Shown one piece after another: positions 13,258 to 31,912 of a DNA stretch of 47,043 nucleotides. Both the position numbers and the translations under genes were made by a program. The notes beneath the pieces were generated by a model. The model did no database searches and was not told the origin of the DNA. It saw only the letters and a program-made list of their open reading frames with translations. This DNA is from a virus, in the IMG/VR virus record IMGVR_UViG_3300043496_000188, positions 1-47,043 of that record; one strand, 5' to 3'. Numbering within the stretch: the stretch's first letter is position 1; every line of letters begins with the position of its first letter.

Positions 13258-13267
13258 ATGGTGCATG
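13258..13267 (+). promoter_or_regulatory. GGTGCATG motif upstream of first early gene
   Basis: ATGGTGCATG lies 34 bases before the ATG at 13302. The same decamer recurs at 25661 and 27517, and its GGTGCATG core at 26804 and 31897. Confidence 0.5.
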
Positions 13268-13301
13268 CTTGACGGCACCACACCACAGCACCGGGGGACC
13301 C

Positions 13302-13562
13302 ATGCAAGCCACGCGCTACCACCTCTGCGACATCTGCGCCGGCATCATCCACATCGGCCAGGACTTCAGCTACGTACGGCCGAAGGGCGGCCCAGTCGGC
13401 AAGCGCCACGCCAGCTGCCCCAGCCCCAAGCCGGCCAAGCGGCTCAGCACGCACGTATTCGTGTCCCGATACCCCAGCCTCTGCCGCCGCTGCGGCCAGC
13501 ACGTCGAGCCTGGCGACGTCGTGCGCATGGACGGCCTCGTCAGCCACCTCTCCTGCCCCTGA
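13302..13562 (+). CDS. Small zinc-ribbon protein (86 aa)
   Basis: ATG 13302 is chosen because GGGGGAC lies just upstream and a longer upstream frame has no ribosome site. Two Cys pairs are visible: CDIC near residue 8 and CRRC near residue 65, with a terminal HLSC. This pattern suggests one or two structural zinc sites of a kind common in short actinophage early proteins. It is the first gene of the rightward block, downstream of the repeat-rich region. Function is not known; nucleic-acid or protein binding is plausible. Confidence 0.65.
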   Translation: MQATRYHLCDICAGIIHIGQDFSYVRPKGGPVGKRHASCPSPKPAKRLSTHVFVSRYPSLCRRCGQHVEPGDVVRMDGLVSHLSCP

Positions 13563-13845
13563 CCGGCCCATATGCAGCAAATTGGGGATGGACTCACACA
13601 CACACAGGGCCGGCCCCTCGTTTAAACACCCTGGGGTCAAGCACGAGCGAGAGTTGGTCCGCCGGCCAGGTCGTGTGAGCTAGTCGGCCGACCATGCTGG
13701 GGCAGGGGGCGGGATGGTCCCCCGGATGGCAGCGGATGCCCCCCCTAGATGTGGACTGCAGCCATAGGGCGAGGGTGGGAGAGCAGTAGGCGAGGCAGCG
13801 CGGCTGTCAGGGCTGCCTTGACGCGTTGACTGTGAGCCCGCAGCT

Positions 13846-13880
13846 CACACGCTGCTCACTGCACACACGCTGCCCACACG
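13846..13880. repeat. Iteron-like short direct repeats
   Basis: CACACGCTGC occurs at 13846 and again 18 bases later at 13864, with a truncated CACACG at 13875. A GTGAGC/GCTCAC inverted repeat lies just upstream. The spacing is close to two helical turns, as in replication iterons or tandem operators. Confidence 0.4.
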
Positions 13881-13939
13881 TAGGGGAGACAGCCGCACTA
13901 CCGTCAAGGTTCGCCGACAGCGAACATAGCGGCATGGCC

Positions 13940-13969
13940 TTGACACATGCATGGTTCACGTTGCATGGT
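13940..13969 (+). promoter_or_regulatory. Candidate promoter for the 14016 operon
   Basis: TTGACA at 13940-13945 matches the -35 consensus. An 18-base spacer leads to CATGGT, a poor -10. The direct repeat TGCATGGTT overlaps it at 13949 and 13963. The exact -35 and the position before a leaderless-looking gap support it; the weak -10 does not. Confidence 0.35.
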
Positions 13970-14015
13970 TATGCCATCGCCAGCCGCTAGGGCAGGCCGA
14001 AGGGTAGGGGACACG

Positions 14016-14177
14016 ATGATCGACTACGTGATCGACGTACTGACTGAGGATGACGGGGAATGGAACATGCTCGCGGCTGTGCTGGCCGTGGCGTTCTGGA
14101 CTGCCGTGGCCACGGGAACCGTGGCTTTCGCACTGTGGGCGAGCGCCAACTACTCCGGCAACGTGGCGGGGTTCTGA
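14016..14177 (+). CDS. Single-helix membrane protein (53 aa)
   Basis: ATG 14016 follows an AGGGGAC ribosome site; earlier in-frame starts lack one. An acidic N terminus (IDVLTEDDGEW) precedes one long hydrophobic helix at about residues 18-42. It is one of many tiny membrane proteins in this block. Function unknown. Confidence 0.6.
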   Translation: MIDYVIDVLTEDDGEWNMLAAVLAVAFWTAVATGTVAFALWASANYSGNVAGF

Positions 14178-14178
14178 T

Positions 14179-14364
14179 ATGACCACGGAAGAATGGCGAG
14201 CAGTGTGGCGCCGCACCACCGCCCCCGTGTGGGGCATGTGTGAGACATGTTGTGATGACGCGTCGCTCACGGAATGCCCGTACGAAGCGGAGTTGATGGT
14301 CTGCGCGGACTGCCTCTCGCACATTGAGAGCGAGTACGAAGCACATCTGATCTACGACCTCTGA
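14179..14364 (+). CDS. Small Cys-rich zinc-binding-like protein (61 aa)
   Basis: It starts one base after the previous stop. The Cys pattern CETCC, then TEC, then CADC is consistent with one zinc ribbon over residues 21-45. The protein is acidic and soluble-looking. A strong hairpin follows the stop. No family is recognised. Confidence 0.6.
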   Translation: MTTEEWRAVWRRTTAPVWGMCETCCDDASLTECPYEAELMVCADCLSHIESEYEAHLIYDL

Positions 14365-14375
14365 CCCACTTTGTT

Positions 14376-14404
14376 CGCGCTCGGTGTCACATGCACCGAG
14401 CGCG
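14376..14404 (+). terminator. Strong intergenic hairpin
   Basis: CGCGCTCGGTG pairs perfectly with CACCGAGCGCG (11 bp) around a 7-base loop, 12 bases after a stop codon. No U-run follows, so it could be a GC-type terminator, an attenuator or an RNase processing site that stabilises the next message. Confidence 0.6.
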
Positions 14405-14463
14405 CGGCATGGCTCACCTAGCCACGGGATCACCACTCCCGACCAACTACCTAAGGGGACAAG

Positions 14464-15216
14464 ATGAAAGCCACGGATGCATGCGTCTACCGGGGGCCTA
14501 GCGCCATCGATGGCTCACCTATCCGCGTGATCGTGACGGGCGTGGCACGCCCGTCACAGAATCGGAAGACCGGTGCCATGGCACAGGTCTGGATCCTCGC
14601 CGATGGCACGGGCGCGGGCACCGCGATGGATGCCATGCGGTCCGGCCGTGATGCGGCCGTGTGCGGTGCCTGCCCGCTGGCAGGCACACGCGGCGACGAT
14701 GGCGCTCGCACGGGCCGTGCGTGCTACGTGAACGTCGGGCAGGCGCCCAACAGCGTGACGCGCGGCGACGCGCGTGGCACGTACGTGGACATGACTCCAG
14801 AGGATGCGGGGATCATGCTCGCTGGTCGGTCCGTGCGCCTTGGCGCCTACGGTGATCCGGCAGCCGCACCGTATGCCGTGATGGCCGCGCTGGTCGCACA
14901 TGCGGATAACTGGACTGGCTACACGCACCAGTGGCGCACCGCAGCGCGTGACTGGTCTGGCCTGCTCATGGCCAGCGTCGAGACATTGCAGGACCGCGAC
15001 GAAGCGCACGCGCTCGGCTACCGGACGTTCCGCGTCACCGCCCCTGACGCGCCCATGGCGGCCCGTGAGGTTGAATGTGCCGCCACGCGTGACCGGAACC
15101 CACTGCAGTGCATCGCGTGTGGCATGTGCGCCGGGACCAAGCTTGGCAGCCGGCCTGGCCGGGTCGACGTTGTGATCGCGGCGCACGGATCCGGCGCCAA
15201 GTACGTCTCCGCGTGA
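14464..15216 (+). CDS. Conserved-looking phage protein with Cys motifs (250 aa)
   Basis: ATG 14464 has AAGGGGAC just upstream. The N-terminal beta-type segment begins YRGPSAIDGSPIRVIVTG. A CGACPLAG motif near residue 69, CYVNVGQAPNSV near 88 and a C-terminal CIACGMCAG (about 216) suggest a bound metal or iron-sulphur cluster. It resembles an uncharacterised protein type I have seen in diverse phage genomes, with the same IDGSPI and CYVN-GQ-P patterns; I cannot give a verified function. It is flanked on both sides by strong hairpins, so it is probably expressed as its own unit. Confidence 0.7.
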   Translation: MKATDACVYRGPSAIDGSPIRVIVTGVARPSQNRKTGAMAQVWILADGTGAGTAMDAMRSGRDAAVCGACPLAGTRGDDGARTGRACYVNVGQAPNSVTRGDARGTYVDMTPEDAGIMLAGRSVRLGAYGDPAAAPYAVMAALVAHADNWTGYTHQWRTAARDWSGLLMASVETLQDRDEAHALGYRTFRVTAPDAPMAAREVECAATRDRNPLQCIACGMCAGTKLGSRPGRVDVVIAAHGSGAKYVSA

Positions 15217-15229
15217 AGGTTGCCCGTGC

Positions 15230-15251
15230 CCCACGGCCCTAGGGCCGTGGG
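15230..15251 (+). terminator. Palindromic hairpin after the 250-aa gene
   Basis: CCCACGGCCCT is followed at once by its reverse complement, 13 bases after the stop; one extra C bulge extends the stem outward. It lacks a T-run. It may be a terminator or processing hairpin, or a binding palindrome. Confidence 0.5.
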
Positions 15252-15286
15252 CATCGGGGAGCATTCACGCTCCACCACTCACCACA

Positions 15287-15304: not shown

Positions 15305-15321
15305 AGATAGGGGACAGGATC

Positions 15322-15725: not shown

Positions 15726-15880
15726 GCGTGCGGGAGCGCGCGGTCGATGTCGGCATCGCGCTCTATGCGATGTTCTTGATGGCCGTCGTCCTCGCCATCC
15801 CCTGGGCCGCGTGGACCCTGCTGGAGTACGCCATGGGCTGGGCCTGGTTCCAGGCCCTGATGATGGCGCTGGGCGGCTAG
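15722..15880 (+). CDS. Membrane micropeptide (52 aa)
   Basis: ATG 15722 overlaps the previous stop. A basic N terminus is followed by hydrophobic stretches at about 9-32 and 38-50, one or two membrane helices. Its TAG shares bases with the TAG of the convergent basic-protein gene, so the two operons end in a 4-base CTAG. Confidence 0.55.
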   Translation: MSVRERAVDVGIALYAMFLMAVVLAIPWAAWTLLEYAMGWAWFQALMMALGG

Positions 15881-16095
15881 GTGTCGAGCCGCCGCTGACT
15901 CGACTTGCGCTTCGCCTGCGGCATCGGGATGGCGCTCTTCCGCTTGGGGGCGGGCCTGGCGGGCAGGCGCGTCTCCTTGGGCCCACCGGGCATGTACCGC
16001 CTAGCGATGTTGCCCTTGACCTTGATGGGCTTCGGCTTCGGCTTCTTGTAGCCGCCCGAAGTCCCGCCTGACGAGCCACCATTCATGACAGCCAT
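15877..16095 (-). CDS. Lys/Pro-rich basic protein, paralogue 2 (72 aa)
   Basis: Starts MAVMNGGSSGG like its upstream neighbour, then a KKPKPKPIKVKG tract and a basic C terminus (KRKSSQRR). Composition resembles histone H1-tail or protamine-like nucleic-acid binders. ATG 16095 overlaps the TGA of paralogue 1, so both are one transcript, antisense within the plus-strand block. Nucleoid compaction or RNA binding is a guess from composition; a small virion protein is the other option. Confidence 0.6.
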   Translation of the reverse strand: MAVMNGGSSGGTSGGYKKPKPKPIKVKGNIARRYMPGGPKETRLPARPAPKRKSAIPMPQAKRKSSQRRLDT

Positions 16096-16238
16096 CAGCG
16101 GTAGGAGCCGCCGGGCCGGGTCTGCTTCTTGGGCCTGGCCGGCAGCACCGGCCCCTTCGGCTTGGCCTTGGCCTTGGCCTTGGGGGGCTTGTATCCGCCC
16201 TTGGATCCACCTGACGAACCACCATTCATGACAGCCAT
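16095..16238 (-). CDS. Lys/Pro-rich basic protein, paralogue 1 (47 aa)
   Basis: Shares the N terminus MAVMNGGSSGG and the following GGYK with the 72-aa gene, then KPPKAKAKAKPKGP and a basic end. ATG 16238 is chosen by this identity; an upstream extension lacks support. The shared N terminus over two genes shows tandem duplication. Strongly basic and disordered in appearance. Confidence 0.6.
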   Translation of the reverse strand: MAVMNGGSSGGSKGGYKPPKAKAKAKPKGPVLPARPKKQTRPGGSYR

Positions 16239-16335: not shown

Positions 16336-16364
16336 GCTACGATTGCCCGCATGGAGGACGTGAC

Positions 16365-18578: not shown

Positions 18579-18699
18579 GCGTGCGGTGCGGCAGATGGCG
18601 CTGGCCATGGCCGCACTGACGATGCGGTTCCTGGCCGCATGGGACAACCACCAAATACGTCAGATGCACCATCACCACGAAGGAGACGAAGATGAGTAA
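18562..18699 (+). CDS. Possible small protein overlapping its neighbours (45 aa)
   Basis: The frame starts inside the resolvase gene and ends inside the next start region. It has a helical, Met-rich first half and an acidic His-rich end (HHHHEGDEDE). It fills the 113-base gap between neighbours, but its last codons coincide with the ribosome site of the next gene, so it may be spurious. Confidence 0.35.
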   Translation: MAASVRRAVRQMALAMAALTMRFLAAWDNHQIRQMHHHHEGDEDE

Positions 18700-19035: not shown

Positions 19036-19133
19036 ACGACAGCGATGACCTGCTCAAGGCGCTCGCCGCCATGGGGTGCGGCGCACTGATCGCCATCGCG
19101 ATGGTGTTCGCAGGACTGGAGCTGCTGCTGTGA
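19032..19133 (+). CDS. Membrane micropeptide (33 aa)
   Basis: GTG 19032 follows GAGGAGGGG and overlaps the previous stop. A short acidic N terminus precedes one helix at about 12-33. Its TGA overlaps the next ATG. Confidence 0.5.
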   Translation: MNDSDDLLKALAAMGCGALIAIAMVFAGLELLL

Positions 19134-19378
19134 TGAGCAACCACGACCCGTTGTGCCCGACGCCCACCTACGGCTACCGCTGCCCGCGATGCGACTTCAT
19201 CGCCAAGGTTCGCGCCGACGAGCGGTGGAGTTGGACGATGTCTCGCGCGGCTGAGGCATCCATCTTGGACGACCTGCGCGCCAAGGTGGAGGCGCTACCC
19301 GCCACCCGCTGGCGGGGTAGCGCCTCGGTCTACCGCGCCGACGTGCTAGCCATAATCGACGGGGGCAGCGATGCATGA
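19133..19378 (+). CDS. Zinc-ribbon RADER-family protein A (81 aa)
   Basis: Begins HDPLCP, then CPRCDFIAKVRADER, giving three or four zinc-ligating Cys/His residues. A helical C-terminal module (LRAKVEALP ... ADVLAIIDGG) follows. The next gene is a close copy. Parts of the two modules reappear in the genes at 19615 and 20564. Probably a small adaptor or nucleic-acid-binding protein; function unknown. Confidence 0.65.
   Translation: MSNHDPLCPTPTYGYRCPRCDFIAKVRADERWSWTMSRAAEASILDDLRAKVEALPATRWRGSASVYRADVLAIIDGGSDA
19201..19300 (+). repeat. Duplicated DNA segment, copy 1
   Basis: About 100 bases matching 19442-19541 with roughly eight mismatches by eye. It encodes the RADERWSW to VEALP part of both paralogues. 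Its high DNA identity indicates a recent tandem duplication. Confidence 0.8.
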
Positions 19379-19622
19379 TCCGCTGTGTCCGGTGGATCCG
19401 CCACGGATGGATGACGGCTACTGCTTCTGGTGTGAGGTGATCGCCAAGGCCCGCGCCGACGAACGGTGGAGTTGGACGATATCTCGCGCGGCTGAGGCAT
19501 CCATCTTGGACGAACTGCGCGCCCGGGTGGAGGCGCTGCCCACGGAGTACGACTCGGCCGTGGAGGATTACGTCAGCCGCGCCGACGTGCTCGCGCTGCT
19601 CGACGGGGGCAGCGATGGCTGA
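19371..19622 (+). CDS. Zinc-ribbon RADER-family protein B (83 aa)
   Basis: Tandem copy of the preceding gene: HDPLCP, then CFWCEVIAKARADER and the same LRARVEALP ... ADVLALLDGG module. The ATG overlaps the end of copy A by 8 bases. The zinc-ribbon spacing differs slightly (longer loop between the Cys pairs), while the middle is nearly identical at DNA level. Confidence 0.65.
   Translation: MHDPLCPVDPPRMDDGYCFWCEVIAKARADERWSWTISRAAEASILDELRARVEALPTEYDSAVEDYVSRADVLALLDGGSDG
19442..19541 (+). repeat. Duplicated DNA segment, copy 2
   Basis: Second copy of 19201-19300, inside paralogue B. Confidence 0.8.
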
Positions 19623-20121
19623 CCGCGACGAGTTGATCGAGGCCGGGGCGCAGGCTTTGTACCCAATGACGGGTCGCACCGATCCTCGGCACGTCGGGGA
19701 CTACGAGCACACGACAGCGGCGGCCGTGGTCGACGCGGTGGAGCCGCTGATCCGCGCCGACGAGCGGGAGTGGCCTGTCGCGTTGGCCGACGGATGGACT
19801 GCCGAGGCGGCCCGGTATCGCGGTTACGCCGAGGGGTCATCGAACCCAGCCATGCACCGGTCTGTCGCTCAGACGCTGGAACAGTGCGCGGACGCGGTTC
19901 GCGCAGCGGGTGCGGGAATACCGGAAGGCTCCCGTCTTGAGGCAGGCACAGAGACCTCCGTGCAGCCGGACGCCATAGGGCCGGACACCCGCTCGTGGGC
20001 CGCCCTGCGCGCCAAGGTGTTGGCGCTGCCCAAGCATCGGTTCATCCACAGCAGTGGCCGGGTTCAGTGGGTGCGTCTCGATGACGTGCTGGCGCTGCTC
20101 GAGGAGAGCCCCGATGAGTGA
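19615..20121 (+). CDS. Modular protein carrying the RADER-family C-terminal module (168 aa)
   Basis: The N-terminal half (AAAVVDAVEPLIRADEREW) is a different, helical domain. The last 45 residues (WAALRAKVLALP ... RLDDVLALLEE) match the C-terminal module of the two preceding genes. It overlaps copy B by 8 bases. The mosaic structure suggests exchange of modules between neighbours. It has no zinc ribbon. Function unknown. Confidence 0.65.
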   Translation: MADRDELIEAGAQALYPMTGRTDPRHVGDYEHTTAAAVVDAVEPLIRADEREWPVALADGWTAEAARYRGYAEGSSNPAMHRSVAQTLEQCADAVRAAGAGIPEGSRLEAGTETSVQPDAIGPDTRSWAALRAKVLALPKHRFIHSSGRVQWVRLDDVLALLEESPDE

Positions 20122-21575: not shown

Positions 21576-21917
21576 TCAACCCGGCTCCTCGTCACGATCG
21601 TCGAAGTCGAACGCCGGGGAGTAGATCGGCACCGCACCCGACTGCACCATCGTCCCCACGCCGAACCCGATGCCGGCGTAGCCGGCCTCGAGGTACTTCG
21701 CGGCGGCTGCCCGGGTGACGAACGGGCCGTGCAGCGAGGGCGCCCGACCCTCCGGCTGCACGCCCGCCACCCACAACCGCTCCCGCTCGCGGCGCTCGTT
21801 GATGGCCCGCACGATGTCGCGGGCCATCGCCAGCGGGTCGTAGTCGGTGTCGTAGCGGGGGTCCTCGAGGATCTCCACGACCATCCGCACCTCGTGCGGG
21901 GACAGGTTGCGCTTCAC
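21576..21917 (-). CDS. Protein downstream of primase, unknown (113 aa)
   Basis: GTG 21917 overlaps the primase stop as GTGA. The first 50 residues are helical and charged; a later segment (YLEAGYAGIGFGVGTM) is Gly-rich. An acidic tail (FDFDDRDEEPG) ends it. No motif was identified. Last gene of the replication block. Confidence 0.6.
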   Translation of the reverse strand: MKRNLSPHEVRMVVEILEDPRYDTDYDPLAMARDIVRAINERRERERLWVAGVQPEGRAPSLHGPFVTRAAAAKYLEAGYAGIGFGVGTMVQSGAVPIYSPAFDFDDRDEEPG

Positions 21918-22537
21918 ACGTCCAGCCTCTCCCTGACACTTTCGACACCCTGCGAAAGGCACAGTGACGACACGTCATGGCCATCCGGTAGGTGTAACAC
22001 CACCGCGTTATCGAGCACCTTCGCCAGCTTCGCGCCGAACATGTGGCCGGCGTCGTCGCCGTCGCACGGGATGATCACCCGGTCGAAGTCCGCGAACAGC
22101 CGAGCCCAGAAGGGCTGCCACGCGTTCACCCCCGGCACCCCGACCGCCGGGATGCCGACCGCCCCATCGCACATCACCGCGTCCAGCTCCCCCTCGCACA
22201 CGGCCACCGTGGTGCGGCCCCGCGCCAGCGCGCCCACGTTGTACATCGTGGGCGTCGCACCCGGGCGGTTCAGGTACTTGGCGCCGCTGTCGTCGAGCGC
22301 CCGGAAGCGGATGTCGACCACGCCGAGGCCGGTGAGGTAGGGGATCGCCAACCTGCCGTGAAAATTTTCGTGACCGGGCATCGGACGTGCGACCAGGCCG
22401 AGGCGGTACTGCGCGGCCAGCCCGGGGGTGATGCCCCGGGCCGCCAGGTACGGCAGGGCATCGTCGATGTCCTGGGCGTACCGGGTGGCCGCCGATGTTA
22501 GGGAAGTTATCTGGGCTTCGGTGAGCGGCTTGATCAC
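21914..22537 (-). CDS. DnaG-type primase, TOPRIM part (207 aa)
   Basis: The N-terminal region resembles the DnaG RNA-polymerase domain start (YLAARGITPGLAAQYRLG). The TOPRIM motifs are VCEGELDAV (Glu residues 115 and 117) and CDGDDAG (Asp 159, 161, 162), which bind magnesium. The zinc-finger domain is absent and is encoded by the overlapping upstream gene. It would make RNA primers for phage replication together with the DnaB-like protein of the same operon. It lacks a C-terminal helicase-binding domain. Confidence 0.85.
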   Translation of the reverse strand: MIKPLTEAQITSLTSAATRYAQDIDDALPYLAARGITPGLAAQYRLGLVARPMPGHENFHGRLAIPYLTGLGVVDIRFRALDDSGAKYLNRPGATPTMYNVGALARGRTTVAVCEGELDAVMCDGAVGIPAVGVPGVNAWQPFWARLFADFDRVIIPCDGDDAGHMFGAKLAKVLDNAVVLHLPDGHDVSSLCLSQGVESVRERLDV

Positions 22538-22878
22538 GCCTGCCTCCGACGCAGTCGGGGCGGCACGTAGGATCCCCCTCGACTGCGTGGGGAAGCGCGG
22601 TGCAGCGACAGGCCCGGGTGGCCGGCCAGCTCGGTAGCCCGGGCGTCGGCCTCCCGGGCCGACAGCCGCTCCTGCTGCATCAGCAGGGTCACCGCGTTGC
22701 CCTTCGCCTGGCAGGCGAGGCAGGCGAAGGAGTCCAGCTCCTCGTTGTACGAGGCGGACGCGTGGTCATCCTCGTGGAAGCAGCACTTCATTGGCCGCCA
22801 CCGGTCGCCGTAGCCAGTCGGCACGTCGGCGCCGTAGTGCTCGAGGATCGCGGCCATGCGGGCGGTGTCCTCACTCAT
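22534..22878 (-). CDS. DnaG-type primase zinc-finger protein (114 aa)
   Basis: CCFHEDDHASASYN followed by FACLACQAKGNAVTLLM is the CHC2 zinc finger of bacterial and phage primases (Cys 32/33, His 35, Cys 53, Cys 56). Its stop overlaps the TOPRIM gene start by 4 bases, so the primase is made as two coupled polypeptides. The last 30 residues are basic. It should recognise template start sites. Confidence 0.85.
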   Translation of the reverse strand: MSEDTARMAAILEHYGADVPTGYGDRWRPMKCCFHEDDHASASYNEELDSFACLACQAKGNAVTLLMQQERLSAREADARATELAGHPGLSLHRASPRSRGGSYVPPRLRRRQA

Positions 22879-23542
22879 GGCCCACCAGCAACTGGCGCCC
22901 GAGGTGTTCGGTGTAGGCCGGCGGGATGGCCTGCGACATCTCTCGGCGGGTCATCCAGTCGATGCCCATCAGCGCGCGCGCCTCGGCGGCGTTGGCGCTG
23001 ACGCCCTTGGCGTTGCTCTTGGTGCCCCCGCCGTGGCCGTACACGCCAAGGATGCGCCTGCCACGACAGGCGCATGGGGGCGCCGTCAGGGGTTCGCTCG
23101 ACGCGAACCGTCGGTGCCGGCGCAACACGTAACCGTCGGTCTCGCAGCCGAACGACGCCCCGCACAGGACGAGCGCGTCAGGCATCGCGGCCCGCTCGAC
23201 GTTCTCGATGATCCAGGGAAGCCCGGAGCGTTCGAGGCGGTCGCGGGTCGCGCTGAGCATCCATGCCGTGCCATGGCCGGTTCGGAACGACCCGAGCGCA
23301 CTGTGGGCGTGGCACGGCGGCGATGCGTGGATCACGTCGAACCCGTCGAGCGGCCACACCATCGCGTCGCCCTGATGGCACACGAACGGGTAGTGCGGCT
23401 GCGGGCTGATGTCGACGCCAACCACCTCGAACCCCGCCTGGTGGTAGCCCATCGCGGCGCCTCCCGCGCCGCAGTACAGGTCCAAGAGCCTCGGACGACA
23501 CGGTGCATGTGACACCGACGGCGAAGAGAGAGCGGCCGTCAC
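22871..23542 (-). CDS. DNA cytosine-5 methyltransferase (223 aa)
   Basis: Motif I DLYCGAGGAAMGYHQAGF (21-38) binds AdoMet, motif IV is SPPC with catalytic Cys-77, motif VI is ENVE (113-116), and an arginine-rich RRHRRF follows near motif VIII. At 223 residues it is shorter than typical m5C enzymes (over 300), with little room for a target-recognition domain. GTG 23542 overlaps the previous stop. No restriction enzyme is adjacent, so it is likely an orphan enzyme protecting phage DNA from host restriction. Target sequence unknown. Confidence 0.85.
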   Translation of the reverse strand: MTAALSSPSVSHAPCRPRLLDLYCGAGGAAMGYHQAGFEVVGVDISPQPHYPFVCHQGDAMVWPLDGFDVIHASPPCHAHSALGSFRTGHGTAWMLSATRDRLERSGLPWIIENVERAAMPDALVLCGASFGCETDGYVLRRHRRFASSEPLTAPPCACRGRRILGVYGHGGGTKSNAKGVSANAAEARALMGIDWMTRREMSQAIPPAYTEHLGRQLLVGHE

Positions 23543-23697
23543 CGCAGCCCCTCGCCCAGCTCGCCCTTGATCACGTCCAGCTGGCTCATCCACACCCGCA
23601 GGTCCGCGTCGCTGGGGTCTATCCGTAGGCTCATCGCGTCCATCAGGTACCACATGGAGTGGTACGCCTTGTCGTAGGCCAGGTCACGAGGACTCAT
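23539..23697 (-). CDS. Small helical protein (52 aa)
   Basis: ATG 23697 to TGA 23539, overlapping both neighbours. Its sequence begins MSPRDLAYDKAYHSMWYLMD, and it is amphipathic throughout. No family recognised. Coupling inside the replication operon supports it. Confidence 0.5.
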   Translation of the reverse strand: MSPRDLAYDKAYHSMWYLMDAMSLRIDPSDADLRVWMSQLDVIKGELGEGLR

Positions 23698-23896
23698 CGG
23701 AGTCCTCCGACATCTCGGGGATCACCAGCGTCACCTTGTAGCCGGTGCCCCGCAGCCGCCAGCGCAGGTCATCCATGAACTCCTCGCGCAGCGTCTCGAT
23801 GTCGTCGGCGACACCGTCCATCGTCATGGTGGCGTGCGCGGTGTAGCTGGAGCCGTTGGCTCTGAACTCGATCACGATCTCAGGCTTGGTCAGCAT
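23684..23896 (-). CDS. Small protein (70 aa)
   Basis: ATG 23896 lies three bases after the helicase stop and is preferred to longer frames that overlap that gene. A beta-alpha-beta pattern (EIVIEFRANGSSYTAHATMT, then a helix and YKVTLVI) suggests a compact single domain with an acidic end. Unknown function. Confidence 0.6.
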   Translation of the reverse strand: MLTKPEIVIEFRANGSSYTAHATMTMDGVADDIETLREEFMDDLRWRLRGTGYKVTLVIPEMSEDSDESS

Positions 23897-23898
23897 GC

Positions 23899-24696
23899 CT
23901 ACCTCTTGTCTCGGGGGTCGGTGAGCGTCATCGACCCGGCGTCGAAGGTGAACTGGATCGCGGTCTTCCCCGACGCGTCGGCTGGGCCCGTCCTGTTCTT
24001 GACGGGGGCGACCCAGAGGGATGCGCCCTCCGGTTGGTACGCGATGGTCAGGACCAGGGCAGGCGTCTGGCTGACTTTCCATTGGATGGCCGAGCGGGGA
24101 GGACAGGGCTCCGACTTCGCGATCGGACTCTCCGAAACATGGTGGAGCACCACAACGCAGGTGTTGTAGTGCCTCGCGAACAGACTCAAGTCCTTCATGA
24201 GGGCGCGCAGCCCGCCGCCCTCGTCCCCATCCCCGGCGCTGACGTCCACCAAGTTGTCGACGATCAGCAGGTGGGGAGCCTCCCCCTTCAGCGTCACGTA
24301 CGCGTCGAGTTCCGCCTCGACGTCCTCCACGGAGGGTGCCGAGTCGAAGGTCCAGCGGATGTGACGGGCCGCCTCCTCGAGCTGCCCGTCACACCAGTCC
24401 GGGTAGTCCCGCAGCCACGTCTCGACCTCGTCCTGATCCTTGCCGTACCGATTGGCGAGGATGCGGATCGCCTGGGTGTGCGCCGTCGAGTCAGCCGACA
24501 TGTAGAGGGTGCTGACTCGACAGCGCAGCGCGAGGACCAGCGCCACCGAGGACTTGCCGGCGCCGGGAACCCCGGCGATCATGCAGACCCCGCCGCGCCG
24601 GAAGTGCACGCCCGCTGCGGCGAGGCTGGGGAAGGGCGACGGCAGCATGAGGCCGCCGCCCTCCCCTCTACGTATTGCCCTGGCGATGGACCTCAT
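23899..24696 (-). CDS. DnaB/RecA-like replicative ATPase (265 aa)
   Basis: Walker A GVPGAGKSS (42-50), Walker B LLIVDN (143-148) and a VVVLHHVSE strand near 182 place it in the RecA-fold DnaB-like helicase group. The usual DnaB N-terminal primase-binding domain is missing, so only the motor domain is present. ATG 24696 is taken; an ATG 48 bases downstream has AGGGGAGGG before it and may be the original start, because an HNH gene ends just upstream. It probably unwinds or loads at the phage fork with the split primase. Confidence 0.8.
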   Translation of the reverse strand: MRSIARAIRRGEGGGLMLPSPFPSLAAAGVHFRRGGVCMIAGVPGAGKSSVALVLALRCRVSTLYMSADSTAHTQAIRILANRYGKDQDEVETWLRDYPDWCDGQLEEAARHIRWTFDSAPSVEDVEAELDAYVTLKGEAPHLLIVDNLVDVSAGDGDEGGGLRALMKDLSLFARHYNTCVVVLHHVSESPIAKSEPCPPRSAIQWKVSQTPALVLTIAYQPEGASLWVAPVKNRTGPADASGKTAIQFTFDAGSMTLTDPRDKR

Positions 24697-24699
24697 TGC

Positions 24700-25113
24700 T
24701 CATGCCGACTTCCAGCTTCGGCCGTGGATGACGTACTGGATCGAAGTCCTGTGGACTCCGAACTCCCTGCCCAGGGCGTGTGCCCCGTCCGTCCTGCTGA
24801 ACGGGACATACCGCCTCCGAATCTCCCTGACGTCCTCGGCAGTAAGGCGGGACAGGTGATGCGTCGCCCCCCTGCGCTGGCGGCCCTTGGTCACCATGTC
24901 CGCCATGTTGTCCGCATGGGTCCCGAGGAACAGGTGCTCAGGGTTCACGCAACGCCGGTTGTCGCAGTGATGGCAGACGAGCAGGCCGTCTGGGATCGGG
25001 CCGAAGCACTCTTCCCAGATGTGCCGGTGCGCTACCCGATTCACTCCCCGAAGGTCGAAGCGGCAGTAGCCGCTTCGATCAGGGACGGAGTGCCATTCGA
25101 TGCAGCCATCCAT
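24700..25113 (-). CDS. HNH homing-type endonuclease (137 aa)
   Basis: An HNH core LVCHHCDNRRCVNPEHLFLG (His 48/49, Cys 50 and 55, His 60) with a following DN is complete. The C-terminal part (LTAEDVREIRRRY ... FGVHRTSIQYVIHG) is a helix-turn-helix for site recognition. It is a free-standing gene between the 170-aa zinc-ribbon gene and the helicase, with weak ribosome signals. A relative lies at 31902. Such genes are selfish elements that cut intron-less or empty alleles. Confidence 0.85.
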   Translation of the reverse strand: MDGCIEWHSVPDRSGYCRFDLRGVNRVAHRHIWEECFGPIPDGLLVCHHCDNRRCVNPEHLFLGTHADNMADMVTKGRQRRGATHHLSRLTAEDVREIRRRYVPFSRTDGAHALGREFGVHRTSIQYVIHGRSWKSA

Positions 25114-25116
25114 GGC

Positions 25117-25629
25117 CTAGGCTGCGTCTTGCCGCCAAGAACACTGCTGGTCACGCGGCAGACTGCATGCCAGGAATGAGCGATAAGGCTTTCCTGTCTT
25201 GCTGATACCTCCGGGGACCACCTTGGCGGGCAGGCCGTGTCCCGAGCACACCGGGCCGGGCTGCTGCCCCTGTTGCGGCACGGACTGAAGGGGCTGGCCG
25301 TACGGCTGCTGCCACTGACTGGGCGCCGCCCCTCCGCTCGCGCCGGGGAACGGCGGCGCTGCAGAAGCAACCGGTGGCGAGACCGGGAGCGAAGGGGCGG
25401 CGGTCTGGGAGAACCCTGGTGGTGCCTGCGGTGCGGCCAGCGGCATGGCGTCGGCGATCGTCCCGCTCGCCGACAGCGCCTGCTCGGTGGCCAGGATCTG
25501 GCCTGCGTTCTCCTGCACCCAGGCCAACTGCCCGAGGATCTCCTGGGAGTGCTCGCCACGGCAGTTGATGAGTGTGCCGCTGGGGGTCTTCACCGAGATT
25601 TGCAGCTTCCACGATGCGTCGTTCGTCAT
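25117..25629 (-). CDS. Zinc-ribbon protein of the replication block (170 aa)
   Basis: ATG 25629 has AAGGGACGAACG upstream. Residues 1-55 form a small mixed domain (WKLQISVKTPSGTLINCRG), followed by a long Pro/Gln/Ala-rich linker (about 60-125). The C-terminal ribbon (CSGHGLPAKVV ... FLACSLPRDQQCSW) has zinc-type Cys and resembles topoisomerase or SSB-type tails. Its place before the helicase suggests a single-strand or template-binding accessory factor. Not an OB-fold by inspection. Function inferred. Confidence 0.55.
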   Translation of the reverse strand: MTNDASWKLQISVKTPSGTLINCRGEHSQEILGQLAWVQENAGQILATEQALSASGTIADAMPLAAPQAPPGFSQTAAPSLPVSPPVASAAPPFPGASGGAAPSQWQQPYGQPLQSVPQQGQQPGPVCSGHGLPAKVVPGGISKTGKPYRSFLACSLPRDQQCSWRQDAA

Positions 25630-25660
25630 TCGTTCGTCCCTTCGATTGGTGTTGATGAGC

Positions 25661-25679
25661 ATGGTGCATGTTGCGTCAG
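25661..25679 (-). promoter_or_regulatory. 19-base recurrent motif upstream of the 25629 gene
   Basis: It matches 27517-27535 at 18 of 19 positions (core ATGGTGCATGTTGC). It lies 32 bases before ATG 25629 and overlaps the last codon of the nuclease gene. Candidate operator or promoter element. Confidence 0.5.
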
Positions 25680-26563
25680 AACGGGGGTAGATCCTTCGCC
25701 GACGTGTGGATGCCGCGCGGCTTCATGATCCGCTTGGCCCGGACCTCCCGGGCCAGCTCGGCCCGGCGCCAGCCCTCGGCGAGGTCCACCTCGAGCAGCC
25801 GGTCACCGGACCCGTCGCGGCTGATCTGGATGATCAGCCCCACGGTCTGGTCGACGTGCTCGAGCAGGCCCAGGTCGCGGGTGCCGTCCGGGTTGTAGTG
25901 CGTGCCCCGGGCGTACGCCGCCATCTGGATGGCGGCAGCACTGACGTTGTTGTGCTGGTGCGGGCTGGTCTTGATGTCCATCACGACCAGCCTCCCATCG
26001 GGCAGCAGGCCGAGGCGGTCATATGACCCGGCGAGCAGCCACTCGTCGTGGACCACGAAGCCCTCGCAGGCCAGCATCTCGATGTCCTTGGTGATCTCCA
26101 CGTACCGGTCGAGGGCTGCCATCAGATCATCGGGGATGGTGCCGTCATCGGGGAACATGTAGGACTCGGCGTCGAACCACTCGGCCAGGCCGTGCAGGGC
26201 GGTGCCCCATCGACTGGCCTCGTTGCCGCCGCCCGCGTCGCGGGCCTCCTCGATCCACGAGGAGTAGTCGCCCAGCTTCCAGTCGCGCTGCCAGCGGGCG
26301 CCTGCCTCCGAGGATTCCCAGACGGGCTGCTCGGCGATGTGCATCAGGTCGGCGAGGATGTGCGGGCGACGGGTCAGGCCGCGCATCAGGATCTGGGACT
26401 TCCACTCCGACAGCCCGCTGCCGTCGTCGAGTGCCTTGGCGAACGTGGAGACGCGGGTGTAGGTGCGGACCTTGCCGTCGGGGCAGAGGATCTTGGGTCG
26501 ACCGAAGTGGTCGCGGGGGATCGGGACGCGCTCGTCGTCGACGTCCTGCGGCTCGGTGGTCAC
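25676..26563 (-). CDS. RecB/Cas4-like PD-(D/E)XK nuclease (295 aa)
   Basis: The RecB-type motifs are in order: GTALH (His-124), GSYDRLG (Asp-182), VVMDIKTS (Asp-196 and Lys-198) and QMAAYA (Gln-213, Tyr-217). These match Cas4/AddB-like exonucleases often carried in phage replication modules. The Cys residues of the Cas4 iron-sulphur cluster are not evident. GTG 26563 overlaps the previous stop as GTGA and is favoured over an in-frame start at 26590. Role: DNA end processing for recombination or host DNA breakdown, inferred. Confidence 0.75.
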   Translation of the reverse strand: MTTEPQDVDDERVPIPRDHFGRPKILCPDGKVRTYTRVSTFAKALDDGSGLSEWKSQILMRGLTRRPHILADLMHIAEQPVWESSEAGARWQRDWKLGDYSSWIEEARDAGGGNEASRWGTALHGLAEWFDAESYMFPDDGTIPDDLMAALDRYVEITKDIEMLACEGFVVHDEWLLAGSYDRLGLLPDGRLVVMDIKTSPHQHNNVSAAAIQMAAYARGTHYNPDGTRDLGLLEHVDQTVGLIIQISRDGSGDRLLEVDLAEGWRRAELAREVRAKRIMKPRGIHTSAKDLPPF

Positions 26564-26784
26564 GCGCTGGCCGGGCGGTGGAACAGCCACGCGTAGAAGC
26601 CGTCGGCCTCCGCGTAGTCCCAGTCGGCGTGGTCGAGGGGGGTCTGTGGCTCCAGGCCGTGGGCCTCGAGGACGGCCAGCCAGTCCTTCTCGGACGGGTC
26701 GATCACCGTCGAGATGAGGATGACGGACTCCTCGTCATCCAGTCCGGACAGCCCGAGCATGTCCCCATGTCTGGTCAGATTCAT
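26560..26784 (-). CDS. Small acidic protein (74 aa)
   Basis: ATG 26784 begins MNLTRHGDMLGLSGLDDEES. The protein is acidic with a central helix and a Trp-rich end. It starts 20 bases from a GGTGCATG-type motif (26804-26820) and may be the first gene of the replication operon after the regulator. No family recognised; an excisionase cannot be excluded. Confidence 0.6.
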   Translation of the reverse strand: MNLTRHGDMLGLSGLDDEESVILISTVIDPSEKDWLAVLEAHGLEPQTPLDHADWDYAEADGFYAWLFHRPASA

Positions 26785-26803: not shown

Positions 26804-26820
26804 GGTGCATGCGGTGCACC
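26804..26820 (-). promoter_or_regulatory. GGTGCATG motif with GGTGC/GCACC inverted repeat
   Basis: GGTGC and GCACC flank ATGCGGT, 20 bases upstream of ATG 26784. Same core as 13258, 25661, 27517 and 31897. Confidence 0.45.
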
Positions 26821-26868: not shown

Positions 26869-27348
26869 CTACCCGTGGTTGCGGGGTTCCGGCGGGATCG
26901 GCGGCGGGTTCAGCCAGACCCGCCGACGGCGGATCGGGACCTCGCTCGGGTCACCGTCCTCGCGGTCCACGTAGAGGAATCCGCTCGGGCTGTCGGGGTC
27001 GTAGGCCACGACCAGCCCCTCGTCGGCGAGCCGCGCCAGCCATGCGTCGAGGCGCTCGATCTCCGATGGCTTCAGCGATCCGCCCTGGTTGCGCCGGCCC
27101 AGCAGGCGCAGCATCCGGACCGGGTAGGCGCGCAGGTGCTCGGGGCGCACCCGCCAGGGAACCTCGTCGTGGTAGCGCGGCACGTCCCTTACCCCCAGCC
27201 CCTCCCGCATCATCGCAGCGGCGATTCCGCTGCGAGTGACGGTCACTCCTGTCTGCTCGTAGACCCGCTGCACCATCTGCCCCTGGGTCAGCCCTTCGTC
27301 CAGCCAGGCCTCGAGCTGCTGCTTGCCTGGGATCACTCTTGTGGCCAT
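26869..27348 (-). CDS. Helix-turn-helix regulator, candidate immunity repressor (159 aa)
   Basis: ATG 27348 starts MATRVIPG; a 15-codon upstream extension begins with TTG and would overlap the operator-like motif. Residues 19-50 (GLTQGQMVQRVYEQTG ... MMREGLGV) form a HTH and 90-115 a winged-helix-like segment. It sits next to the integrase on the opposite strand, a usual place for a repressor or integration regulator. AGTGACACTGT, 10 bases before the start, is also present in the 16323 palindrome, which suggests autoregulation and control of the 16365 operon. The role is inferred. Confidence 0.65.
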   Translation of the reverse strand: MATRVIPGKQQLEAWLDEGLTQGQMVQRVYEQTGVTVTRSGIAAAMMREGLGVRDVPRYHDEVPWRVRPEHLRAYPVRMLRLLGRRNQGGSLKPSEIERLDAWLARLADEGLVVAYDPDSPSGFLYVDREDGDPSEVPIRRRRVWLNPPPIPPEPRNHG

Positions 27349-27410
27349 GCCACGCACAGTGTCACTACCATGCCGCACTGTCAATAGATCCAACGGGGTG
27401 TTGACAAGTG

Positions 27411-27416: not shown

Positions 27417-27454
27417 AACGCATCAGATTGGACCCTGCATCGTCGCAGGTCGTG

Positions 27455-27482
27455 TCCGGAGGGGGACTTGAACCCCAGCCAA
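27455..27482 (-). other. attP: Putative attP core resembling a tRNA 3' end
   Basis: Read on the minus strand it is GGGGTTCAAGTCCCC, a tRNA T-arm, followed by CTCCGGACAC. A GTTCAAGTCCC T-loop with a GGACAC end resembles actinobacterial tRNA-Leu genes, which do not encode CCA. No 5' half of a tRNA is present. Tyrosine integrases normally recombine at such 3' tRNA halves, and the integrase begins about 90 bases away. Confidence 0.6.
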
Positions 27483-27516: not shown

Positions 27517-27535
27517 ATGGTGCATGTTGCATCAG
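27517..27535 (+). promoter_or_regulatory. 19-base recurrent motif upstream of integrase
   Basis: The core ATGGTGCATGTTGC, 36 bases before ATG 27571, matches 25661-25679 at 18 of 19 positions. It may be an operator, or an integrase arm-type site because it lies beside the att core. Confidence 0.5.
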
Positions 27536-27570: not shown

Positions 27571-28593
27571 ATGGCTACATCCATCCATTTGACAGAGGCT
27601 CGCGATCGTTACGTCAGGCACTTGCGGGCCAGAGGGCTAAGCGAACGCACCGTGAAGAACCACAGCCAGGCCGTCGGACAGGCCACCGCCCTGTGGGGAG
27701 ACCTCATGCTGACCTCGATCACAGCCGCGCACATCGACTCGCTGTTCAGCCACTACGGCTGGAAGCCCACCACCCGGAACCTCTACCTCACCTACCTGCA
27801 GGGCTTCTTCGCCTGGGCCAGGGCGCACCGCTGGATGCCGAAGGATGCATGTCCCACCGAGGGGTGGCGCGCGGTGCGCGTTCCGAAGGTGCGGCGTACC
27901 AGGGTCACGCTGCACGAGTTCCCCGCGCTGCTCGACTCGGCGACCCACCCGAGGGACCGGGCCGTGCTCGCCGTGGGGCTGTTCACCTTCATGCGCGGCG
28001 GGGAGATGAGCACCCTGCGCGTCGACGACCTGGACCTCGACGAGAACCTACTCAACATCTACCGGCACAAGACCCAGCAGGCCGACACCCTCCCGGTGAG
28101 CAGCGAGCTGCACGCCGAGATGGTCCGCTGGCTCAACTGGTACCGCGCCGACCAGGGCGCGCTGCGCCCCAACTGGTACCTGCTGCCAGCGAAGAATCCG
28201 AACCACACGTACTACGATCCAGCCACTAGACAGATAGCCGTGGACCTCACCAAGCACGCCTCGCTGCGGCCCACCACCCTGCTGGCGCGGCCGTACTCGG
28301 TGGTCCAGCGGGCGCTCGCGGCCCTCGGCTACGACACCTACCAGGAAGGCCAGCACACGTTGCGGCGCAGCGGCGCAAGGGCGCTGGCCGACACACTGCG
28401 CGAGCAGGGATACGACTCGGCACTCATGCGAGTCGCCTCTATGCTCGGGCACTCGAACAGCAGGATCACCGAGCAGTACATCGGGTGGGACCTCGAGCGG
28501 GAACGGCGCAACGAGGACATCGCCGGCAAGCCGATGTTCCCCACCCTCACCACAGGAACGGTCACCGAGTTGAGGAAGGCATCCAATGGGTAG
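27571..28593 (+). CDS. int: Tyrosine integrase (340 aa)
   Basis: The catalytic set is complete: Arg-142 (MRGGEM), Lys-167, His-262 and Arg-265 (HTLRR), His-294 (LGHS) and Tyr-303 (TEQYIG). An N-terminal core-binding SAM-like domain spans about 8-90. GGACAGGAG lies 7 bases before ATG 27571. It integrates the phage at a host tRNA and makes the phage temperate. It is on the opposite strand from the repressor-like gene. The next small gene overlaps its end by 8 bases. Confidence 0.93.
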   Translation: MATSIHLTEARDRYVRHLRARGLSERTVKNHSQAVGQATALWGDLMLTSITAAHIDSLFSHYGWKPTTRNLYLTYLQGFFAWARAHRWMPKDACPTEGWRAVRVPKVRRTRVTLHEFPALLDSATHPRDRAVLAVGLFTFMRGGEMSTLRVDDLDLDENLLNIYRHKTQQADTLPVSSELHAEMVRWLNWYRADQGALRPNWYLLPAKNPNHTYYDPATRQIAVDLTKHASLRPTTLLARPYSVVQRALAALGYDTYQEGQHTLRRSGARALADTLREQGYDSALMRVASMLGHSNSRITEQYIGWDLERERRNEDIAGKPMFPTLTTGTVTELRKASNG

Positions 28594-28843: not shown

Positions 28844-30749
28844 TCGTGCCGCCCATCCCGGTGAACGACCGGGATGGCGGCGTCGTGGTCGTGAACGACA
28901 CCTTGTCGATCAGGCAGCGCAGCGTGTCGCCGGTGCGGTGGTCGGTCACCCCGACCGCCAGCCCGGAGGACTCCAGGCCCTCCAGATCCGCCAGCATGTC
29001 GCGGGCCCAGCCCTCGTAGCCGACCACGTTGTTGTTGCGGTCAGACACCCGGTCGAAGCACAGCAGCGGGTACTGCAGGTACCGGGTCCGCCGGGGCGCG
29101 GGCAGCGCGCGCAGCCCCAGGCTCAGCAGCCTCGGGCTGCCCGCCGCCGTCCCGTCACCGGTCAGCGTGATCCGGTGACGCAGGCTCGACGCCGCCGGCA
29201 GCGCCGCCGAGTCCAGCGCCAGCCCGGAGTCCGAGATCGGCACCTGCAGCGCCACCCCGGTGGTCGGCGCCCAGCCCTTCCCGGCGTCGGCCTCCAGGTA
29301 CACCGTGCCGGCGCCAGCCGCCTCCACCGCGAAGCTCAGCCACGCCTTGCGCTCGGCGGTGGAGAACGACACCTGCCCGGAGTCCAGCCAGCCGATCGTC
29401 GAGTAGGCGTCGTCGGAGCGGTACAGCGAGCCACCCGTCGACGACGGCCCGCAGACGTACCAGAGGCGCCCCGCCCCGTACGTCACGCTCCACGTCTGAC
29501 CCGACGTCGAGGTCGCCCCCGGCTCGTACAGGTCCGCCGCGTACGGGAACCGGCTCGCGGCCGAGTCGCCGAAGTTGCCGCGCAGGTTCACCGGGGCGCT
29601 CAGGTCCACCCGGTACAGCCCCGGTCGGCGGGTGGTGATGTCCGGGGAGATCCGCTCGGTACCGGAGGCGGCGTACAGGTACTGGCCGTCGCCGACCATG
29701 TCGTTGCAGCCACCCTCCATCGGGATGGTCACCGGCCCGATGGGCAGCGCCGACGGCTCCGAGCAGTCCGCGATCCGCAGTCCTTTTGTAGTGCCTATCG
29801 CCAAATACCGGCTCAGATAGCCGTATAGAACGAGGCCCCGCTCACCCCGAGGCAAGGTGGCCACCTCGACCGGCGCCGACAGGGCACCGTCGTCGCCGGT
29901 GCTCAGCATGAAGATCGACGTGAACGCCCCCACCACCATCACGTACACCGCCGCCGCGCCCTGGTCGATGTCGACCACGGTGCCGCCACGGAAGGTGATC
30001 GGGGTGGTGGGCAGCGTCGGCGGGGCCAGGTTGGTCACCTCGTGCAGGTTCTTCCCAGCCCCCACCCACAGCCGGTCCTTGGCCCACGACAGGGCCGTCA
30101 CCTGCGAGCCGGGCACCGCCAGCGCACCCTCCCCGCCACCGGCGAGCAGGCCGTACTCGACGCCCGTGTTCGACGCGGCGAACCACGTCGTGTCGTTGGC
30201 GGTCAGCGGCCCGGAGATCGACGTCTTCGCGCTCAGCACCGTCGGCGACCCGGTGTCGGCGTACCTGCGCACCCCCGTCGCCGAGGTCACCACCACCCCG
30301 CTGGCGGTGCCCAGGGCGCGCCTGGCCCCGGTGTCGCGCAGCACAGAGGTGTGGATCATGCCCAACTCGCCCGGGGTCCACGGGTCCACCCCACCACCGT
30401 CGGCGTACCGGAACCGAGCCTCCTCCGCAGAGCCCTCCAGCGGCTCGGCGTACGCCTGCCCGGCGCCCAGGTGCCACGACGTCTGCCCGCGCAGCCACAC
30501 CCCGGAGTCCAGCGACGCCTCACCCGGATCCCGGGCGTCGTCCAGACGCTGCCGGGTCACCGGAGCCGTCTCACGCACCAGCGGGTTCTCGGCACTGATG
30601 CCCAGGATGAACGGCAGCGCCCCGACGTGGATGTCCCACAGCGGCTCGTCGAGGTTCGTCTGACCACCCTCGAAGACCTGGCGGTGCAGACCGATCAGGC
30701 TGCGGTACTGGTAGCCGAACGCCCCGAGCGAGGACGCGATGACCGCCAT
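28818..30749 (-). CDS. Tail protein with propeller-like repeats (643 aa)
   Basis: Many short beta-strand repeats, for example WFAASNTGVEYGLL, LWVGAGKNLHEV, YLYAASG and LWYVCGP, indicate a beta-propeller over residues about 100-430. A jelly-roll-like C-terminal part follows. Last gene of the late operon. In short-tailed phages a propeller-bearing nozzle or tail-tube-B protein occupies this place, next to the head-tail adaptor. A receptor-binding fibre is the alternative. Confidence 0.6.
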   Translation of the reverse strand: MAVIASSLGAFGYQYRSLIGLHRQVFEGGQTNLDEPLWDIHVGALPFILGISAENPLVRETAPVTRQRLDDARDPGEASLDSGVWLRGQTSWHLGAGQAYAEPLEGSAEEARFRYADGGGVDPWTPGELGMIHTSVLRDTGARRALGTASGVVVTSATGVRRYADTGSPTVLSAKTSISGPLTANDTTWFAASNTGVEYGLLAGGGEGALAVPGSQVTALSWAKDRLWVGAGKNLHEVTNLAPPTLPTTPITFRGGTVVDIDQGAAAVYVMVVGAFTSIFMLSTGDDGALSAPVEVATLPRGERGLVLYGYLSRYLAIGTTKGLRIADCSEPSALPIGPVTIPMEGGCNDMVGDGQYLYAASGTERISPDITTRRPGLYRVDLSAPVNLRGNFGDSAASRFPYAADLYEPGATSTSGQTWSVTYGAGRLWYVCGPSSTGGSLYRSDDAYSTIGWLDSGQVSFSTAERKAWLSFAVEAAGAGTVYLEADAGKGWAPTTGVALQVPISDSGLALDSAALPAASSLRHRITLTGDGTAAGSPRLLSLGLRALPAPRRTRYLQYPLLCFDRVSDRNNNVVGYEGWARDMLADLEGLESSGLAVGVTDHRTGDTLRCLIDKVSFTTTTPPSRSFTGMGGTIILTLLAV

Positions 30750-30750
30750 G

Positions 30751-31878
30751 TCAGTTCGCGAACCAGGCGAGGCCGCCGAGGCTGACCCAGTCGTCGACAG
30801 CCATCGTCCCGCCGAAGGACGGCACGAAGAGCACCACCCCGGCGCCGTCGATGTTGAGCTGGCCAGCCGAGTAGTTGCGGCCGCCTGCGGTTGGGGTGGC
30901 CACGAACGGGACGCTGCAGCGCAGCCCGTTCGCGGGCCGGTACGCCGAGTTGGTGATCGTGCCGATCGTGTAGGTGGTGTTGTCGACGATGGTCAGGGAC
31001 GAGGACCGCTCGAACGTTCCGACGACCACGACGAGCTTGCCGGTCATCTTCATGGTGACCGGCACCGAACCGGCCCGCCAGCCGCTCGCGTAGGACACGC
31101 CCGTCGCGACGGGAACCACATCCATGGCTGTGTCGACCGCAGTCTTGATCGAGTCGTCCACGTACTTCTTGTGGGTGGCGTGCGCGGTCCCCGTCGGCGA
31201 CGCGGTCGGCAGCGTCACCGCGCCCTGCACCGTCACCGCGCTGGTGATCGGCCCGGTCAGCGCCCCACCGGTGAGCTTCAGGTACGGCGCGTTGTCGACG
31301 TACCGCTTGGTGGCCGCCTGCAGGTCCGTGGCCGGTGGACCGTTCAGGCTCAGCGGCCCGGTCATGGTGACGTTGCCGGCCATGGGCACGAACGTGGGAT
31401 CCACGTACGCCCTGGTGGCGTACGGGACCAGCCCGTTGTCCACGTAGTTCCTGGTGGCGTACGGGATCAGTGACTGGTCCACGTACCCCTGGTTGGCGGC
31501 GTGCCCCGGGTCGGTCGGGTTCCCCGACAGGGTCAGCGGGCCGGTCATCGTCCCGCCCGCCAGCGGCACCTTGGCGGCGAAGTCGGTGAAGTCCGCAGGC
31601 CCCACCCCTGGCACCACCACGTCGCCGGCGTTCTTCGCCGTCGCCGGGGTGGAGTCATGGCCTCGGGTGACCCGCAGCGTGTTCACCGTCGGCTTGCCGA
31701 CGACCAGGCAGATTTCCTCGCGGGAGGTGTTGTAGCCGACGATCACCTTGTACGGCGCCCGCCCACCGGCGGTCGGGTCCGGGTAGGTAAGACCATTGGA
31801 GACCGCGATGTCGATAGCGGTCGAGTCGATCCCCGTCGACAGCGAGGTGGCGATGACGTTGGCGGGATAGTAAGCCAC
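30751..31878 (-). CDS. Tail fibre with repeated MTGPL/YVD units (375 aa)
   Basis: Residues about 115-240 contain three MTGPL or LTGPI steps and four YVD steps (TKRYVD, NYVD, AYVD, KYVD). This is the trimeric fibre-shaft pattern found in many phage fibres. The C-terminal about 120 residues form a beta-rich head. The 537-residue protein has the same TKRYVD element near its N terminus, so they may share an attachment region. Upstream is the opposite-strand HNH gene. Confidence 0.75.
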   Translation of the reverse strand: MAYYPANVIATSLSTGIDSTAIDIAVSNGLTYPDPTAGGRAPYKVIVGYNTSREEICLVVGKPTVNTLRVTRGHDSTPATAKNAGDVVVPGVGPADFTDFAAKVPLAGGTMTGPLTLSGNPTDPGHAANQGYVDQSLIPYATRNYVDNGLVPYATRAYVDPTFVPMAGNVTMTGPLSLNGPPATDLQAATKRYVDNAPYLKLTGGALTGPITSAVTVQGAVTLPTASPTGTAHATHKKYVDDSIKTAVDTAMDVVPVATGVSYASGWRAGSVPVTMKMTGKLVVVVGTFERSSSLTIVDNTTYTIGTITNSAYRPANGLRCSVPFVATPTAGGRNYSAGQLNIDGAGVVLFVPSFGGTMAVDDWVSLGGLAWFAN

Positions 31879-31895
31879 GGTCAGGCTCCTGTTCC

Positions 31896-31912
31896 TGGTG
31901 CATGCGACGTCA
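31896..31912. promoter_or_regulatory. GGTGCATG motif between fibre and HNH genes
   Basis: Core TGGTGCATGCGACGTCA, 18 bases upstream of the fibre start (31878) and overlapping the first possible HNH start (ATG 31902). Part of the recurrent motif set. Confidence 0.4.

Follow-up and report, generated by a model that had tools for sequence, protein, structure and literature searches.

What recognises a short motif that recurs ahead of gene starts in several operons of one phage genome? The question is raised by virus record IMGVR_UViG_3300043496_000188, a stretch of 47,043 bases that was analysed whole and is called the window below. An earlier note on it had reported five copies of the motif (at 13258, 25661, 27517, 26804 and 31897) and guessed at a phage-wide operator or promoter element, perhaps bound by the helix-turn-helix (HTH) protein encoded at 26869. 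On the evidence set out here, the sites with the core GGTGCATG are very probably operators and stoperators of the phage's own immunity repressor of the L5/R4 type (26869–27348). The phage is uncultured, lies outside Cluster A and is probably actinobacterial. Repressor-stoperator immunity has precedents in phage L5 and its relatives; repressors of the L5/R4 family bind many intergenic sites, and stoperators are thought to block elongation.

Distribution and orientation of the motif

The coordinates and sequences of the five reported sites were all correct, 18 of 19 bases agree between the copies at 25661 and 27517, and the five sites lie 18 to 44 nucleotides (nt) ahead of gene starts, as had been claimed. 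The window holds eight copies of GGTGCATG, those at 14390 (−), 19851 (−) and 23502 (+) being additional to the reported five, together with one copy that carries a single mismatch. These sites, and a hairpin that holds one of them, are as follows.

13260–13267, + strand: GGTGCATG site where the late (−) and early (+) operons diverge, some 35 nt ahead of the ATG at 13302
14376–14404, + strand: hairpin CGCGCTCGGTG-TCACATG-CACCGAGCGCG, which holds the 14390 site
14390–14397, − strand: GGTGCATG site inside the rightward early operon, reading TGTCACATGCACC on the coding strand, within the strong hairpin
18663–18670, − strand: site GGTGCATC with a single mismatch, 22 nt ahead of the ATG at 18692 in the rightward early operon
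19851–19858, − strand: GGTGCATG site, the sole copy entirely within a gene, which may be a chance occurrence
23502–23509, + strand: GGTGCATG site in the leftward operon, at the methyltransferase gene's 5' end
25663–25670, + strand: GGTGCATG site in the 46-nt gap between the exonuclease and gp49-like genes, 33 nt ahead of the gene starting at 25629 (−)
26804–26811, + strand: GGTGCATG site with the inverted repeat GGTGCA-TGCGG-TGCACC, 19 nt ahead of the gene starting at 26784 (−), the first of the leftward replication operon
27519–27526, + strand: GGTGCATG site between the putative phage attachment site (attP) and the integrase gene, 44 nt ahead of the integrase start at 27571 (+)
31897–31904, + strand: GGTGCATG site 18 nt ahead of the structural gene starting at 31878 (−), also overlapping a possible ATG of the + strand HNH gene

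The raw abundance of GGTGCATG, a word picked post hoc, is modest: 8 copies in the whole window against 3.07 expected, a number reached by 3 of 100 shuffles. The strong signal is location. With gene starts taken from our own calls, seven of the eight copies are intergenic in a window with an intergenic share of 7.7% (binomial probability 1.2e-7), and the exact core occurs 7 times in 3.6 kilobases (kb) outside genes and once in 43 kb within them. Equal density inside coding regions, which the earlier note had named as telling against a regulatory element, is therefore not what is seen. An unbiased scan of intergenic words, from which the results for 7-, 8- and 10-mers were used with shuffles as the control, placed GGTGCAT at the top of the 7-mers, with 9 occurrences where 1.03 were expected; the 8-mers were led by TGGTGCAT, followed by GGTGCATG. 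Of 590 dinucleotide shuffles, 2 had a most frequent 8-mer with a count of 7, and these words were GC-rich. The observed counts of the '12/2' words were within the range of the shuffles, and the p-values of these words are invalid because the expectation omitted two-mismatch neighbours. Beyond the core, the copies at 14390 and 23502 have 17 identical bases in common (87% over 30).

When the sites are read along transcription, they take the form YGYMR-CATGCACC in the window and CTTGA-CAKCCACC in L5 (its consensus, 5'-GGTGGMTGTCAAG (PMC3029335), reversed). All six exact copies with a defined direction of transcription, including that at 19851, have GGTGCATG on the template strand, and the one-mismatch site at 18663 obeys the same rule. 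In D29, all exact GGTGGMTGTCAAG copies have this strand as template relative to transcription. The sites of TipsytheTRex are most variable at consensus positions 8 and 9 in the numbering of that study (PMC9283540), and the C-to-G difference of the window would fall on position 9 if this numbering runs along transcription.

The repressor and its relatives

The gene at 26869–27348 and those around it bear on the identity of the binding protein, and are listed here with the likely attachment site.

25117–25629, − strand: L5/D29 gp49-like gene (weak Pfam match, below cut-off)
25676–26563, − strand: PD-(D/E)XK (Cas4/RecB-like) exonuclease (library matches)
26560–26784, − strand: small gene downstream of the repressor, with a homologue at the same place in relative G001 (below) and the peptide DWDYAE in common with it
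26869–27348, − strand: immunity repressor of the L5 gp71 / R4 gp29 family (PHROG, tblastn, profile and fold matches)
27450–27476, + strand: likely attP core, TCGTGTCCGGAGGGGGACTTGAACCCC, similar to a transfer RNA (tRNA) 3' end, between repressor and integrase
27571–28593, + strand: tyrosine integrase, divergent from the repressor

The 26869 product is an L5 gp71-homologous repressor with HTH and Stoperator domains. It has no match in Pfam, and among PHROGs it matches phrog_3929 (E 3e-25) and also phrog_357, families named transcriptional repressor. Among isolated phages, tblastn returned annotated immunity repressors of Streptomyces phages at up to 39% identity (Amethyst, 39%) as well as matches in Mycobacterium phages, and R4 gp29, annotated as 'similar to L5 gp71', aligns over the full length at 34%. 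A profile of five family sequences matches the crystal structure of the TipsytheTRex repressor:DNA complex (7r6r, E 7e-10). The same structure is the single significant PDB match (E 3.5e-5, probability 1.00, template modelling score 0.63) of an AlphaFold model built from a 25-sequence alignment, whose predicted local distance difference test score is 91.5. The in-frame ATG at 27348, which gives MATRVIPGK, appears from the sequence to be a better start than the GTG at 27336 picked by the gene caller. The element TTGACA-17-CACTGT (27337–27384, − strand) ends at this ATG on the repressor side of attP and is a possible promoter for a leaderless repressor mRNA. The stretch 27450–27476 is the probable attP core; similar sequence is present at the same place in two relatives (L002 and L003).

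Single-sequence scans of IMG/VR with the exonuclease and with the repressor returned no relatives; an alignment search did find some. In one of them, IMGVR_UViG_3300027985_001046 (G001), the repressor is 57–59% and the integrase 58% identical to those of the window, and the local gene order is the same. Its 28 kb hold three copies of GGTGCATG: one before the integrase gene corresponds to 27519, one upstream of the small gene to 26804, and one at the exonuclease/gp49-like junction to 25663. Loss of the sites in relatives, which the earlier note had also regarded as damaging to its proposal, is thus not observed in G001, where 3 of 3 copies are equivalently placed. Two of the three are exact TTGACATGCACC, which is more L5-like, and G001 sites include the TCAA half (GGTGCATGTCAA), nearer to L5 than those of the window. 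Several relatives have a site at the exonuclease/gp49-like junction, and so does D29, whose stoperator at the equivalent Cas4 exonuclease junction is at 44033. As a negative control, seven terminase relatives selected regardless of repressor were searched, and in these 13 of 14 GGTGCATG copies lie in genes. In relatives with repressors 46–53% identical, repeats of the GCAACATRTGA type occur both in the gap between integrase and repressor and at the exonuclease junction, and these repeats have GCAACATG in common with window sites 25663 and 27519. Arrays of such repeats stand upstream of the repressor in five uncultured relatives (L059, L061, L051, L052 and L060), which therefore have other site specificities in the same family.

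The system shares with L5, TipsytheTRex and D29 (Cluster A2) a homologous two-domain repressor, many intergenic asymmetric sites with a GGTGnMTG core, the same orientation of sites to transcription, and a gene order in which a small gene and then a Cas4-type exonuclease follow the repressor and the exonuclease junction has a site. Unlike them, it has G where L5 has C (coding-strand position 9 of CTTGACAKCCACC), and its repressor is 155–160 amino acids long rather than 183. Its tyrosine integrase is encoded divergently from the repressor, the putative attP lying in between; its terminase is of a different lineage, and its sites number 8–9 rather than 20–30 and do not keep the TCAAG half. R4, for which a repressor-stoperator system has been described (PMC10276819), and Amethyst (Streptomyces phages; Arquatrovirinae, cluster BD) have repressors 34–37% identical over the length and repeated intergenic sites, which the same word scan recovers as CTGTGCAAGTGT-type words. 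R4 sites show a strong orientation bias, as in the window (19 of 21 in the main orientation; those of Amethyst are less uniform). However, the site sequence of these phages differs, their serine integrase is located elsewhere, and their map is that of a linear virion with another arrangement. The MabJ prophages of Mycobacterium abscessus, compared from the published description only, resemble the window in their 155-amino-acid repressor and in their 14 sites cTTgACATACGaCC, which are mostly intergenic and of one orientation; the right half of the site differs, and the genome organisation is Cluster A-like (PMC9934374).

The window thus has multiple related sites that are mainly intergenic and spread over several operons (7 of 8 exact copies plus 18663), and these are asymmetric with one orientation to transcription (6 of 6 exact copies plus 18663). 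Because it lacks both the TCAAG half and the 20–34 sites of Cluster A, the system is assigned to the broad repressor-stoperator kind and not to Cluster A. The suggestion that the HTH protein at 26869 is the binder gains support from its L5/R4 family membership, from the location and orientation of the sites, from their resemblance to that of L5 and from their conserved placement in relatives.

Alternative explanations and proposed mechanism

Several observations weigh against assigning the sites to a repressor of this family. The 13-bp site of Cluster A ends in an invariant TCAAG at positions 9–13 (PMC5559632), and the window sites do not keep this half; the GGTG half is conserved instead. Their number is 8–9 against 20–34 in Cluster A. 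The copies at 13260 and 27519 are uninformative as to orientation because both lie between divergent genes. A scan of the window for consensus promoters passed none and recovered none of the sites, and not every relative that encodes a related repressor yielded a copy-rich set of sites. With 3 mismatches allowed, matches to the L5 consensus show no convincing excess in the window (63 against 47.7; 17 against 13.7, the latter for GGTGCATGTCAAG at ≤3 mismatches), so the L5 motif itself is not what recurs; the sites retain the GGTGCATG half only.

The motif might instead be a promoter element, with a −10 such as TATGGT or CATGGT and GCATG downstream, for host or phage-modified RNA polymerase. Gene starts follow several sites, ATGGTGCATG at 27517 overlaps TATGGT, which is a possible −10 at the 27519 site, and in G001 the integrase site overlaps the TAGGGT of TTGACA-18-TAGGGT, which leads into GCATG ahead of the integrase. 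Within operons, however, GGTGCATG is on the template strand and therefore cannot be the −10 of those genes, most sites have no evident −35, and an operator overlapping a promoter would account for the integrase case, which makes this explanation unlikely. Of the earlier note's two suggestions, the operator is supported and the promoter only in part, as most sites lie inside operons. It is highly unlikely that another phage or host protein is the binder, such as a host nucleoid or replication protein or the second HTH/sigma-region-4-like protein that the phage encodes (16365–16856), since the motif resembles the L5 site, obeys the L5 orientation rule and tracks the repressor family, occurring at equivalent places in G001 and not in the terminase relatives chosen without regard to the repressor.

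That the sites act as RNA hairpins or terminators is very improbable. The 14376–14404 hairpin is indeed very stable (−30.4 kcal/mol, z −3.9, equally stable shuffles 0 of 200), with an 11-bp perfect stem and the motif in its loop and arm; it follows directly after a stop codon, has no T run, and is possibly a terminator plus stoperator. GGTG also stands 7–16 nt upstream of CACC in 5 of 9 sites (p about 0.012, post hoc). At six of the seven sites tested, however, hairpins fold no better than shuffles, and conservation covers the whole CATGCACC word rather than pairing. An inverted-repeat form of the site itself (GGTG upstream of CACC) was rejected on this post hoc p-value of 0.012 and the lack of hairpins at six of seven sites. 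Recurrence of a short word by chance, for which the marginal excess in the whole window (3 of 100 shuffles) and the choice of the motif after looking could be cited, is extremely improbable given the intergenic concentration, the top rank in the unbiased scan, the orientation and the synteny with G001.

If the sites are those of the repressor, the two-domain protein would bind an asymmetric site of about 13 bp (coding strand YGYMR-CATGCACC), and, by analogy with 7r6r, a single monomer would occupy each site with both its HTH and its Stoperator domain. At the promoter-proximal sites 13260, 26804 and 27519, binding would keep the early, replication and integrase transcripts, respectively, from being initiated. 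TTGTCA-17-TACGGT, on the − strand immediately upstream of the 26804 site, is a possible promoter, although the promoter scan shows no significant one there. With repressor bound, the operon-internal sites 14390, 18663, 23502, 25663 and 31897 would act as orientation-dependent roadblocks to elongating RNA polymerase, as proposed for L5, and the 14390 hairpin may add termination. The outcome would be silencing of the integrated prophage and immunity to superinfection. More tentatively, an L5-type repressor lineage may be changing specificity half by half, with GGTG kept and TCAAG lost here but retained in a relative. The repressor would then directly gate the divergent integrase through a site next to attP that overlaps the integrase promoter, and a terminator-like hairpin would incorporate one of the stoperators. 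The mechanism is already known in outline; the present sites would extend repressor-stoperator silencing of prophages to an uncultured lineage that is neither Cluster A nor R4-like, with sites of intermediate form. The window phage and G001 offer a natural pair for studying how the specificity of a monomeric two-domain repressor changes in step with its scattered sites, and such candidate sites can be predicted from metagenomic sequence alone.

Genome layout and minor features

The window is probably a circularly assembled phage genome, as suggested by an end repeat of 165 bases (1–165 and 46879–47043). The two copies are only 93% identical and there are long C runs near the right end, which indicates sequencing or assembly errors at the joint. 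By gene calls and PHROGs, late genes run on the − strand from the terminase at 12599 leftward via the coordinate origin to 28818, the + strand carries early genes from 13302 onward, and the leftward replication module (21576–26784) is headed by the repressor. The large terminase is 43.5% identical to those of Streptomyces phages, and the repressor is nearest to Streptomyces and then Mycobacterium phages; an actinobacterial host is therefore likely. Searches of the window found no tRNA gene and no Rfam family, the phage collection held no close DNA-level relative, and tblastn among phages found no relative of the integrase.

Two neighbouring small − strand genes inside the rightward early operon (15877–16238) both start with MAVMNGGSSGG, and two small neighbouring genes at 19133–19622 derive from a 111-nt duplication (89% identical, 241 bases apart). 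An HNH endonuclease-like gene (31902–32366; PHROG and Pfam HNH) lies on the opposite strand inside the late operon, and a second (24700–25113) was judged to be such solely from the common peptide PEHLFLGT. At 13920–13980, ahead of the gene at 14016, TTGACACATGCATGGTTCACGTTGCATGGTTATG combines a −35-like hexamer with a repeat of TGCATGGTT of 14-bp period, and this element may be another operator or promoter.

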